From the IMG/VR virus record IMGVR_UViG_3300002161_000012, positions 8,187-37,951 of that record: a stretch of 29,765 nucleotides of DNA. One strand, 5' to 3'. A program made the translations under genes and the position numbers. Position 1 is the stretch's first letter. Each line of letters begins with the position of its first letter. Below are positions 17,009 through 21,633 of this stretch, piece by piece. Source of the stretch: a virus. A model generated the notes under the pieces. It was not told the origin of the DNA and searched no databases. It saw only the letters and a program-made list of their open reading frames with translations.

Positions 17009-17791
17009 TTATTTTAGTCCTAAAAGTTCTTTTACTTTTGGACCAGGGAAGAAGTCAGGCTTTAGACCATTGGCAATTTTAAAAGCCTTGATTGCCTCGT
17101 CGGTTGCTGAGTCTTTTTGACCGTTAATTTCACCATTGTAGAAACCTTTTGCCTTGAGCGCTTCTTGTAGTTTCTTGATGTCGTCTCCGCCTGCGGCAGG
17201 AGCGGCGGCTGGGGCATTACCTACTGGGGCAACTACGCCGTTAGCGTCCATCCATGCTTTAACCGATGCAGGGATATTGTCTCCGCAGACATAACGCAAG
17301 TGCCATGGTTCGCTTGGAACAACTTCCCATGAAAAACCAAACTCTTTAACGTTTGCAATAAGCCAGTTGAGACGCTTTGGCTCTGATGCTGAATGAACGT
17401 CAACCGCCAAGCCGAGGTTATGCTGTGATTTACCAGGTGTAGCCAACATCGCCATACCCTTCTTGAGATACCAAGTCTTACCTTCAAAGGTTTTGGTGCT
17501 GGTTCCATCCACTTTGTCAAGTGTGTAGCGAGTAAGAAATCCCTTTTTTTGGCTTTCGTAATCTCTGTATGTGTCGCCGCTGGAAGTCGGTTTTAATTCA
17601 ACGCCTTCAGCCTTGGCTTTTTCAACCATTGCTGTCCATGCGCATGCGGCGATCCAATGCATCTTTCCGCCACCAGGAACTGCTTTGAGAAGGTTGGCAG
17701 GGAGTTTTCCTGGCTCAATACCTTTAAGGTCTTTTGGAAGAACTACTGGAACAATGTAATCCCATGCAAGTTTGCCCATGATTTCCACCAT
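17009..17791 (-). CDS. Endolysin: M15 (VanY/D,D-carboxypeptidase-like) peptidase plus peptidoglycan-binding domain (260 aa)
   Basis: Residues 45-170 form an M15 zinc peptidase. The zinc ligands are His124 and Asp131 in SQHNLGLAVDVHS and His164 in EPWHLRYV, with Glu161 as catalytic base. YRDYESQKKGF (75-85) matches the conserved Y.~...Q..~f motif. An Ala/Pro-rich linker (187-203) leads to a PG_binding_1-type domain (204-260: IKKLQEALKAKGFYNGEING, then ATDEAIKAFKIANGL). The enzyme would cleave peptide cross-links or stems of the host wall at lysis. There is no signal peptide, so release needs a holin. Two starts are possible, ATG 17791 and ATG 17779; neither ribosome site decides. The preceding 96-base gap is the longest in the window. 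Confidence 0.9.
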   Translation of the reverse strand: MVEIMGKLAWDYIVPVVLPKDLKGIEPGKLPANLLKAVPGGGKMHWIAACAWTAMVEKAKAEGVELKPTSSGDTYRDYESQKKGFLTRYTLDKVDGTSTKTFEGKTWYLKKGMAMLATPGKSQHNLGLAVDVHSASEPKRLNWLIANVKEFGFSWEVVPSEPWHLRYVCGDNIPASVKAWMDANGVVAPVGNAPAAAPAAGGDDIKKLQEALKAKGFYNGEINGQKDSATDEAIKAFKIANGLKPDFFPGPKVKELLGLK

Positions 17792-17839
17792 CTTTCCTGT
17801 TAAATACAGCGTTGTCTTGGCACCATTTTACACCATAAT

Positions 17840-17857
17840 GCCAGTATTGCTACTGGC
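17840..17857 (-). promoter_or_regulatory. Inverted repeat in the gap before the endolysin gene
   Basis: A perfect 7-bp inverted repeat (gccagta, ttgc loop, tactggc) lies in the 96-base gap between the oxygenase and endolysin genes. No U-tract follows in the coding direction, so it is a poor terminator. About ten bases further on is TAAAAT, which could be a -10 element, but no -35 box is clear. It could be an operator, a weak terminator or part of a late promoter; the sequence does not decide. Confidence 0.35.
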
Positions 17858-17887
17858 ACAAAGGTTACCCAGCGACTGTAACGCCTT

Positions 17888-18457
17888 TTATATGCCAGTA
17901 ATATTTATATTCAATACACAGCGTTTTGTAGAAATTAAAGGCAATTGGGCAGAATGGGGGACATCCGAATTAAAAACAACTAAACAGTTTTCTTTTGGTG
18001 TTTGCCTATGGATGATGTTTTTGTTTTCGTAGAATAATGTATCACCGTCAGAGTCGTTAAAATAATAAAGACCAGTAAAACCATTATTCATATCTGTATG
18101 TATTTGCGGTTCAACCTGTTTGCCTACATTCAAAGTTAAATTAAGTTTTAATCTAATTAGTTGATAACTGGTTAAACCAAGTGCGTCAACCATTCCATAA
18201 ACAATTGGCTGAAACAAAGATAAATAGTTTGATTGACTATCTATTGAATAGGCAATATGAGTAAAACCATGTAACTCTATTGGATACTTTTTGTTTGGTT
18301 CATTTTCTAAATGACCTGAATCATGAAAATACCAATCAAAGTTATTGCCTAGAACAATGTCTTTAACAACTTTGAAATGGGTATCACCGAGTAAATTGTT
18401 TATGAATAGTGGGTTATTAGTTACAACACCATCAGTAATTTGTGCAAAATGTGCCAT
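17888..18457 (-). CDS. 2-oxoglutarate/Fe(II)-dependent oxygenase with a MAHFA start (189 aa)
   Basis: The prolyl-hydroxylase-like core has the iron ligands His120 and Asp122 in PQIHTDMNNG and His168 in NSDVPHSAQ. Arg179 in STKRCVLNINI is the 2-oxoglutarate-binding arginine, and LYYFNDSDGDTLFYE is the typical central 'Y.N...G.T' stretch. Such oxygenases are frequent in aquatic phages and may hydroxylate virion proteins or host surface targets; the substrate is unknown. The ATG at 18457 (TAATG overlap with the previous gene) gives the start MAHFAQITDGVV, the opening of the MAHFA small virion proteins. The frame is open ten codons upstream, but that would sit inside the adhesin gene. Base composition is visibly more AT-rich than its neighbours. 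Confidence 0.85.
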   Translation of the reverse strand: MAHFAQITDGVVTNNPLFINNLLGDTHFKVVKDIVLGNNFDWYFHDSGHLENEPNKKYPIELHGFTHIAYSIDSQSNYLSLFQPIVYGMVDALGLTSYQLIRLKLNLTLNVGKQVEPQIHTDMNNGFTGLYYFNDSDGDTLFYENKNIIHRQTPKENCLVVFNSDVPHSAQLPLISTKRCVLNINITGI

Positions 18458-18458
18458 T
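18443..18458 (-). repeat. 16-bp repeat at the MAHFA start, copy 2
   Basis: The coding-strand sequence AATGGCACATTTTGCA is identical to 21618-21633. It covers the start codon and first codons of the oxygenase gene. Just upstream both copies also share AGTATTACTTT at the end of the glycine-rich gene. It marks a likely recombination junction. Confidence 0.75.
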
Positions 18459-19386
18459 AAAAAGTAATACTCCCCGAACCAGTCCAAGTATAAACACGAT
18501 ATCCAGAACGAGATGTTGTATTGATTGTTGGAGAACCAGTAGTTGCAACAGCAGCATCAAAATCTAATGGATAGGCAACAATGACCACACCACTTCCGCC
18601 CGATTGACCATTTGTTGTCAAATGCAAATATCGGGAGCCACCGCCACCGCCACCGCCCGTGTTTGACGAACCTGCTGTTGGTGTCCATGCTCCTGAACCA
18701 CCGCCACCTGCGCCTCCAGCACCGCCACTACCAAACTCTAAGAAGTTTCCTGCTCCGCCTCCGCCGCCTCGGAATGTAGCGGTTCCGTCTATGGATGACG
18801 AACTACCATTACCACCAGCACCACCGTTTTCACCTTGGTTGTTTTGACCAACTGCTCCAGCACCGCCACCGCCACCGCCAGCCCGTGAACGCCCATTGAT
18901 TACACCCGCTCCAGAACCACCATTGTTACCTTGTGACGGACTTACTGATGGTGTGTTACCTGCACCACCGTTTGAACCATTACCATGACCACCTCCACCT
19001 GAACCACCAGCAATAGTTCCACCGCCACCGCCACCAGCAGATGAAATAGATGAAAATACAGACGCAGTTCCACTTCCACCGTTTCCAAGTGAGCCTGAAG
19101 AACCACCGCCGCCACCGCCAACAGTGACAGTTAGTGCAACACCAGCAGAAACAGCAAAAGATGCTGAAGTGCGATAACCGCCCGCACCACCTCCACCACC
19201 ACCGTCTGTGCCGCCGCCTCCACCGCCACCGCCAACAACAAGGTATTCAACGCTAGATGGAGGATTTGGACCACCACCAGACCAGTAAGCAGCAACCTGA
19301 GCCGTGTTACCACGGCTACTACGTGGAGCCAATGACCCACCACTAATGGCTTTACCACCAGATGTGCTTTTTAAAATAGAAGGCAC
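18457..19386 (-). CDS. Glycine-rich adhesin-like protein, module copy 2 (309 aa)
   Basis: Residues 1-45 are a short unique N-terminus (MPSILKSTSGGKAISGGSLA). The glycine-rich domain begins with VEYLVVGGGG, runs through many polyglycine tracts separated by short strands (GGYRTSASFAVSAG, VALTVTVGGGG) and closes with [11 protein letters not shown]. The C-terminal 40 residues end SRSGYRVYTWTGSGSITF. This is the phage 'glycine-rich domain' type seen in receptor-binding adhesins. By analogy with T4-like gp38 adhesins, polyglycine-II packing is possible, with variable loops contacting the receptor. The start is GTG, with an AAGGGG site five bases before it. The closest paralogue in the window is at 21644-22573. 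Confidence 0.8.
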   Translation of the reverse strand: MPSILKSTSGGKAISGGSLAPRSSRGNTAQVAAYWSGGGPNPPSSVEYLVVGGGGGGGGTDGGGGGGAGGYRTSASFAVSAGVALTVTVGGGGGGSSGSLGNGGSGTASVFSSISSAGGGGGGTIAGGSGGGGHGNGSNGGAGNTPSVSPSQGNNGGSGAGVINGRSRAGGGGGGAGAVGQNNQGENGGAGGNGSSSSIDGTATFRGGGGGAGNFLEFGSGGAGGAGGGGSGAWTPTAGSSNTGGGGGGGSRYLHLTTNGQSGGSGVVIVAYPLDFDAAVATTGSPTINTTSRSGYRVYTWTGSGSITF

Positions 19387-20055: not shown

Positions 20056-21267
20056 TTACCAAGTGATTGAACCAGTTGACAAGAAGACGTACGTTTTATA
20101 ACCGTTTGCGTTAGTCATTGTTACACCACTTCCTGTAGTTAAAGCAGTTGGGTATGTTGATGAGGTTCTAATCACAACTGCTCCTGAACCACCTGCTCCA
20201 CCGTTACCAGTAGAGTGGCCTCCACCACCACCACCTCCACCAGTGTTTGCGCCACCAGCGCCACCAGGATAGTTAGTATCACTGTTTGTACCACCAGTAC
20301 CAGCAGCACCTACGTTACGTCCCCCAGTACCACCTGCTCCAGGACTTGTAGTTGCTTTTGCACCGCCACCGCCACCGCCTAAACCACCGTTACCACCAGG
20401 CATTGCTCCTGTATAACCAGAGCCACCACCACCGCCACCGTAGTAAAAACCATCAATAGGGTTAATAACACCAGCGCCACCATTTCCTGGAGTAGACCCT
20501 GACACGACTGTGGCTCCGTTTGCTCCTGCTCCAGCGCCTCCACCACCAGCATAGTTAAGACCATCGGCACCAATACCATTACCACCAGTTCTTCCACCGT
20601 AGGCAGTTCCTGTGGCACCTGCTGGGATTGTGTCTATCGTTCCAGTTTGTCCTGCTGTCCTTACACCGTCTGAAGAACCACCTGCACCGTTAGCACCACC
20701 AGTAGCATTAGCATTATTAAAATAAGATGATGCACTTCTGTTCCAACCTGCTCCACCACCTTTACAAGTAGCACCTGCAAAAGAAGAAGAAGCCCCAATA
20801 CTTCCACCAGTATCAGTACCTTGACCACTGCTTATTGTTCCAGCACCACCAGCACCAACTGTAACTGTGTAAGTGTTTCCGTAAACTAGTGAACTAGAAC
20901 TTACGTACATAGCACCACCGCCACCAGCGCCACCAGTTAGTGACGTTCCAGCACCACCGCCACCAGCAGCAATGAAGTACTCAGTAGTAATAGAATTATT
21001 AAAAATAACGCCATTTGACCAGTTTGTACCCGTGTATATTCTCAGTAGGTTAGTATCTGTTTCGTAAATACTTTGCCCTGTATTAGGGGTTGCAGGGCGA
21101 GTAGTACTAGTGCAAACAGTAATACCACCAGCACCAGCCGCAATCTTTGCAGACGTTACCGCACCATCGGCTAGTTTTGCCGTGGTAATTGAACCGTCAG
21201 TTACAGCACCAAGGTTGTACTTGGTTTTGTTTTCTGCGAATTGAAGTTCAAAATCAAGTGGGTCCAT
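20056..21267 (-). CDS. Glycine-rich adhesin-like protein with fibre N-terminus (403 aa)
   Basis: The N-terminus has a fibre linker (SITTAKLADGAVTSAKIAAG) and then the shared module ITVCTSTTRPATPNTGQSIYETDTN, ending IYTGTNWSNG. The glycine-rich domain begins at TEYFIAAGGGG, and the chain ends SGAVVIRTSS, NGYKTYVFLSTGSITW. It is the longest of six glycine-rich paralogues. Its N-terminal module matches those at 23372, 25172 and 26104 more than the two 309-aa copies. The start overlaps the previous stop by one base (TAATG). It lies between the two copies of the four-gene module. Confidence 0.8.
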   Translation of the reverse strand: MDPLDFELQFAENKTKYNLGAVTDGSITTAKLADGAVTSAKIAAGAGGITVCTSTTRPATPNTGQSIYETDTNLLRIYTGTNWSNGVIFNNSITTEYFIAAGGGGAGTSLTGGAGGGGAMYVSSSSLVYGNTYTVTVGAGGAGTISSGQGTDTGGSIGASSSFAGATCKGGGAGWNRSASSYFNNANATGGANGAGGSSDGVRTAGQTGTIDTIPAGATGTAYGGRTGGNGIGADGLNYAGGGGAGAGANGATVVSGSTPGNGGAGVINPIDGFYYGGGGGGSGYTGAMPGGNGGLGGGGGGAKATTSPGAGGTGGRNVGAAGTGGTNSDTNYPGGAGGANTGGGGGGGGHSTGNGGAGGSGAVVIRTSSTYPTALTTGSGVTMTNANGYKTYVFLSTGSITW

Positions 21268-21632
21268 TACGCAGGAAGTGTTACTTCATCCCATTCTTGG
21301 TTTGCTTCATCCCAGGTGTAGAAACCTTCTGTTGGGCGAGCAACTGGTGCTTCCCATTCAGTGGTTTCTTCGTTAAGTGACCATGATGGGTAAGGCTTTG
21401 GGGCGATGTAAGCATCCAAATCTGATCGGTAGGTGTAACCAATACCTGCGTAACGAGCACGCATGTTGCCGTTGTATGAGGTCTGCTTCCATGTTCCACC
21501 AAGAAGGTTGCGACAGAATTCAGCGCCTACGGCTTCTGATTCGTTGCCCTCTGAGTCCTTACAATCATCGTTAGATACTACGATTACTCGCAATACGATG
21601 TTGTCTTCACCAAGTTCTGCAAAATGTGCCAT
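21267..21632 (-). CDS. MAHFA-type small virion protein, module copy 1 (121 aa)
   Basis: The protein starts MAHFAELGEDNIVLRVIVVSN and has DCKDSEGNE, then EFCRNLLGGTWKQTSYNGNMR and YAGIGYTYRSDLDAYIAPKPYPSWSL. The rest is tryptophan-rich (EEPVARPTEGFYTWDE-type pattern). Proteins of this family are widespread in cyanophages and other aquatic phages, often near tail fibres; their function is not established. The start has AGGAG eight bases upstream. The stop overlaps the next gene by one base (TAATG). Its 5' end shares 16 identical bases with the oxygenase gene at 18457. Confidence 0.8.
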   Translation of the reverse strand: MAHFAELGEDNIVLRVIVVSNDDCKDSEGNESEAVGAEFCRNLLGGTWKQTSYNGNMRARYAGIGYTYRSDLDAYIAPKPYPSWSLNEETTEWEAPVARPTEGFYTWDEANQEWDEVTLPA

Positions 21633-21633
21633 T
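21618..21633 (-). repeat. 16-bp repeat at the MAHFA start, copy 1
   Basis: The coding-strand sequence AATGGCACATTTTGCA is identical to that at 18443-18458. Here an AGGAG ribosome site and a gap separate it from the end of the glycine-rich gene, whereas in the other copy the two genes overlap. Confidence 0.75.

Follow-up and report, generated by a model that had tools for sequence, protein, structure and literature searches.

Phage tail gene clusters are subject to modular mosaicism and deletion fusions, and one gene in such a cluster raises the question of how a putative 2OG-Fe(II) oxygenase came to begin like a gene of another family. The window analyzed here is a 29,765-nucleotide stretch of DNA that spans positions 8187-37951 of a virus record 37,951 bases in length (IMGVR_UViG_3300002161_000012). 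The translation of the open reading frame opens with MAHFAQITDGVVTNNPLF (189 aa), and, as judged by sequence comparison, its start is the first ~13 codons of a different, widespread tail-region gene belonging to the MAHFA family (phrog_7759), the body of which is missing from the chimeric gene. The parts of this gene and the genes on both sides of it are as follows:

17888..18457 (-), chimeric gene, 189 aa: MAHFA start (codons 1-13) followed by a 2OG-Fe(II) oxygenase
18419..18457 (-), MAHFA-derived stub, MAHFAQITDGVVT, with 12/13 residues identical to a true MAHFA gene in the viral stretch L260
18404..18418 (-), junction zone, codons 14-18 (NNPLF), where MAHFA similarity stops and the oxygenase core starts
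17891..18403 (-), oxygenase core, with Fe ligands and 2OG-binding Arg retained
18457..19386 (-), Gly-rich tail adhesin (PF21722), directly upstream of the chimera
17009..17791 (-), endolysin, downstream of the chimera; anchor for finding syntenic relatives

An assembly artefact joining two phages could produce such a gene, and the window does come from a metagenomic virus record. However, a second record of 75,020 bp is identical to the window over 8,567 bp spanning the junction, although the two may share reads, and both the open reading frame and the catalytic residues are intact, which makes an artefact extremely unlikely.

The oxygenase and its family

The phrog_274 profile covers residues 19-186 of the chimeric protein (E 1.3e-34), phage homologues of the oxygenase align mostly from residues 19-21 onward, and the match to PF13640 remains below its cut-off (22.1 vs 27 bits). 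The initial annotation had placed the takeover by oxygenase sequence after about 13 residues, which agrees with the phrog_274 match beginning at residue 19; the junction zone was placed by this match and by the oxygenase of L140, a relative described below, which aligns from ~residue 14-15. The MAHFA start is also not the N-terminus of the oxygenase family, since it is absent from all of the ~30 homologues inspected, which came from IMG/VR and from isolated phages. These proteins open near the first core strand ('M..IIDNFL'; residue ~17-19), whereas the window enzyme, instead of the usual short native N-terminus, has ~13 extra MAHFA residues.

The facial triad H-x-D...H (H120, D122, and H168) is invariant in both alignments examined, and the 2OG-binding R179 is invariant in the 14-sequence alignment and conserved at ≥90% in the 22-sequence alignment. 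The AlphaFold2 model of the oxygenase (pLDDT 87; shallow alignment, 22 sequences) adopts a double-stranded beta-helix fold. Its fold matches in the PDB are PHD2/EGLN1, Pseudomonas P4H (4j25), and PBCV-1 vCPH (5c5t) (Foldseek E ~1e-6, TM ~0.55-0.66), with which it shares the beta-helix but only 10-18% identity. Based on the modeled fold, the enzyme most likely hydroxylates the side chain of a protein or peptide. A PDB sequence search with the oxygenase profile gave no convincing relative, and a scan of genome contigs with the oxygenase found no relatives.

Cyanophages and pelagiphages encode several 2OG-Fe(II) oxygenases, often colocated, whose role is unsettled (PMC3037559, PMC9599517). With phrog_274, which comprises cyanophage and pelagiphage oxygenases, the window enzyme shares the whole core, the H-x-D...H motif and Arg, the size, and the clustering with other 2OG oxygenases; in contrast to the other members, it has a foreign 13-codon MAHFA start and an adhesin-coupled start, and it shows at most 40% identity to any other member found. 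The phrog_274 family is labeled 'DNA endonuclease V', and P-SSM4 denV (L208) and S-MbCM100 DenV (L210) are 2OG-Fe(II) oxygenases by motif despite that name; the label looks like a misannotation spread over cyanophage records. Such a label, like short identical gene starts, is easily over-read.

The MAHFA start and the shared 16-mer

A complete member of the MAHFA family is encoded elsewhere in the same cluster:

21267..21632 (-), complete MAHFA gene, 121 aa, phrog_7759, with its own spaced ribosome-binding site

The initial annotation had noticed that the oxygenase begins like this gene, and the 16-mer AATGGCACATTTTGCA is indeed present in exact form at 18443-18458(-) and 21618-21633(-); no further site in the window matches it, even with 3 mismatches allowed. 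The shared upstream DNA that it pointed out was found as well: AGTATTACTTT (18461-18471) is common to both loci because both upstream Gly-rich adhesins end in ..GSITF*, and the two regions comprising an adhesin end and a MAHFA start are 67% identical across 168 bp. The reading of the 16-bp identity as a junction did not hold. Given the same peptide, the probability of identical A-H-F-A codons is ~0.024 under the codon use of the window; the 16-mer is present in at least 120 viral stretches, where it starts MAHFA-family genes in nearly all cases (~3/120 look like chance matches), and the identity is therefore ordinary for the family. The switch to oxygenase sequence occurs at codons 13-18 (~18419-18404), outside the 16-mer. 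From these comparisons, we regard the 16 bp as a mark of shared ancestry of the start and not as a crossover point.

A profile built from MAHFA genes aligns to residues 1-15 of the chimeric protein (profile positions 1-16), scoring the stub at 10 bits, and to no further residues, which means that the chimeric gene is not a MAHFA gene. It resembles phrog_7759 in the first 13-15 residues, the place behind a Gly-rich adhesin, the TAATG overlap, and the embedded Shine-Dalgarno sequence described below, whereas the tryptophan-rich body of that family (QTSYN...RKNYAGIGYTYD...W) is completely absent. In a degenerate scan of IMG/VR viral contigs, MAHFAQITDG was found only in the window's own phage and in L260; in the latter, a Gly-rich adhesin gene is followed by a true MAHFA gene that opens with this peptide (MAHFAQITDGLVTTVIVVHNNE...QTSYN).

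The function of the MAHFA family was sought in several ways. Pfam gave nothing consistent, a PDB sequence search with the MAHFA profile gave no convincing relative, a fold search of the PDB gave nothing significant (best match, Pam3 fibre, E 0.8), and a fold search of a viral fold library gave only unnamed relatives at E < 0.001. Two unusual members were observed: on the minus strand of L048, a 285-aa protein consists of a full MAHFA domain followed by ~190 residues with no significant Pfam match, that is, a MAHFA C-terminal fusion; at L034:3723-3773, the reading frame opened by a MAHFA start terminates after 16 codons, representing a degenerate MAHFA gene.

It had been suggested that the shared start directs proteins to the virion or the adhesins, in which case the oxygenase would have retained its MAHFA start as a signal bringing it to the tail fibre, or to the machinery that assembles the fibre, for modification of the adhesins. 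The location of the gene within an adhesin cluster and the protein-hydroxylase-like fold predicted for the enzyme would fit such a role. The structural models argue against it, as residues 1-6 of the oxygenase model have pLDDT <50. The first hairpin of the MAHFA model (pLDDT 96) consists of strand 1 (residues 2-7) and a partner strand (12-19), which is truncated in the chimera, the stub ending inside this hairpin. Moreover, MAHFA has no demonstrated virion role, and a targeted scan covering 2.9 million contigs revealed no other oxygenase that starts like MAHFA: a pattern combining MAHFA with the P-W-[FY]-[FY] motif gave no match, and a looser form of it gave 37 stretches, with the oxygenase there only in the window's own phage. 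We consider targeting by the stub very unlikely; most likely, the stub is a translational leftover.

Translation start and the upstream adhesin

Two elements at the end of the adhesin gene bear on how the oxygenase may be translated:

18457..18459 (-), adhesin TAA stop, which shares one base with the chimera's ATG (TAATG)
18470..18474 (-), probable embedded Shine-Dalgarno sequence GGGAG in the last codons of the adhesin (GGG AGT), 12 nt before the ATG

The TAATG overlap was found in 54/112 loci with the MAHFA 16-mer, and in 49 of those 54 it follows a Gly-rich open reading frame. The Gly located five codons from the adhesin end is encoded by GGG in 25/34 overlapping junctions, compared with 2.1% for the remaining Gly codons of these genes and with 5/20 in spaced junctions (Fisher p 7e-4 for overlapping vs spaced, a value inflated by sequence relatedness). 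Followed by AGT or AGC, this codon gives GGGAG 12 nt 5' of the ATG. In the window adhesin, 3/106 Gly codons are GGG, one of them at this site. This pattern in the sequences suggests translational coupling of the oxygenase to the adhesin, via a Shine-Dalgarno sequence inside the adhesin coding sequence. More widely, in aquatic phages the last codons of an adhesin seem to double as the ribosome-binding site for the small tail-region gene that follows.

The gene copy at 21632 was considered as the source of the stub and rejected, since its junction is spaced and has its own ribosome-binding site, and since the two junctions differ in the key codon, which is GGC there and GGG at the overlapping junction of the oxygenase. 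Among the junctions of 48 relatives, another class was also seen, with endings like VVIRYKFK that often have AGG at a similar position.

One might go further and regard the adhesin end with its built-in Shine-Dalgarno sequence, together with the first MAHFA codons, as a portable translation-start module behind which cargo genes are repeatedly swapped, the oxygenase being one captured cargo. We found a single fusion of this kind, from which a general rule of cargo swapping does not follow, and we consider this idea doubtful.

Gene order in the adhesin-endolysin slot

The window endolysin (17009-17791) was used to fetch 80 relatives, and in those assigned to the slot groups the endolysin shows 88-93% aa identity to that of the window. 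The end of the slot on this side is marked by a further element:

17776..17835 (-), conserved endolysin leader, exactly where DNA similarity to relatives restarts

In L140, the slot contains adhesin-MAHFA-oxygenase (phrog_274)-endolysin, and the MAHFA gene shares 41 nt with the oxygenase gene, which is read in a different frame. The slot of L130 and L131 is adhesin-MAHFA-endolysin, with the oxygenase absent; that of L126 and L127, close relatives of the window phage, has a small gene and three different 2OG oxygenases in a row before the endolysin; and that of L128 and L129 has another oxygenase. The order adhesin-MAHFA-oxygenase occurs again in L213 and L214, which were found via the L140 oxygenase and have no match at the window's endolysin. 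In each of the 18 fetched loci with both genes, the two share a strand and MAHFA precedes the oxygenase. The window oxygenase is placed in the tree as sister to the L140 and L213 oxygenases (support 99/92, 40% identity).

Similarity at the DNA level was found on both sides of the oxygenase. On the endolysin side, it extends to L126-L131 and L140 as far as 17835. On the adhesin side, the adhesin-MAHFA joint of the window (18440-18554) is 78-79% identical to those of L140, L213, and L214 over 115 bp, ending at codon 6. The adhesin side bears on convergence, that is, a MAHFA-like start that arose either fortuitously or through shared selection acting on early codons, for which one could cite the shortness of the 13 residues and the low profile score of the stub. 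Convergence is barely credible given that the likeness continues upstream into the adhesin, that the same TAATG overlap and GGG-AGT are present, and that MAHFAQITDG otherwise occurs only in the one real MAHFA gene of L260.

Origin of the chimeric gene

We propose that the gene is probably a fusion of two former neighbors through a ~0.3 kb deletion. The ancestral slot would have been Gly-rich adhesin, MAHFA gene, 2OG-Fe(II) oxygenase, and endolysin, an order still present in L140. The deletion would have taken out nearly all of the MAHFA body as well as the native start of the oxygenase and placed the oxygenase core in frame behind MAHFA codon ~13, and the oxygenase would now be read from the MAHFA start of the lost gene, coupled to the adhesin. 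As in the modular mosaicism and deletion fusions of tail clusters, neighbors in a variable slot would have been joined or exchanged; the difference is that in the present case nothing but its translation start would be left of the lost gene. The locus would thus be a case of a phage enzyme gene changing its translation start through loss of a neighbor, with the likely ancestral order still found in relatives.

The principal alternative is the one put forward in the initial annotation, in which an oxygenase from elsewhere recombined through short homology into a resident MAHFA gene, of which the first 13 codons were kept. The MAHFA body is indeed missing, the slot is variable, with different oxygenases in L126-L129, and L130 and L131 have MAHFA there without an oxygenase. 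The AT-richness on which the proposal drew was also found: at 31.4% GC, the chimeric open reading frame is the lowest among the window genes, the others having 46.6 ± 3.2%. In L140, however, the MAHFA and oxygenase genes are equally AT-rich (35.8% and 36.6% GC, respectively); AT-richness is thus a property of the entire cassette and no sign that the oxygenase arrived later. Entry by way of the 16 bp did not stand, since native oxygenase genes have no MAHFA start and lack the 16-mer, which therefore could not have guided one in. Since a sister oxygenase and MAHFA already lie side by side in this slot, a deletion suffices and is better supported than an oxygenase incoming via short homology; we regard such a replacement as possible, though unlikely.

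Some observations weigh against the deletion. Because the two L140 genes are in different frames, the deletion must also have put them into a common frame, and an import in two steps would yield the same product. No microhomology is visible at the breakpoint. We also found no phage in which this oxygenase allele accompanies a complete MAHFA gene, as an intermediate would show; the oxygenase of L140, the nearest, is only 39-40% identical, and at this distance the deletion is inferred rather than seen. A limited literature search found no paper on this MAHFA-oxygenase fusion.

The region between the oxygenase and the endolysin

A strong hairpin, GUGCCAGUA-GCAA-UACUGGCAU (17838-17859; fold z -2.9), lies between the oxygenase and the endolysin leader and has no clear T-run. 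The leader itself, TGGTGTAAAATGGTGCCAAGACAACGCTGT...GGAAAGATGGTGG (17776-17835), is kept in relatives whose upstream genes otherwise differ, and is possibly a promoter or other regulatory element.
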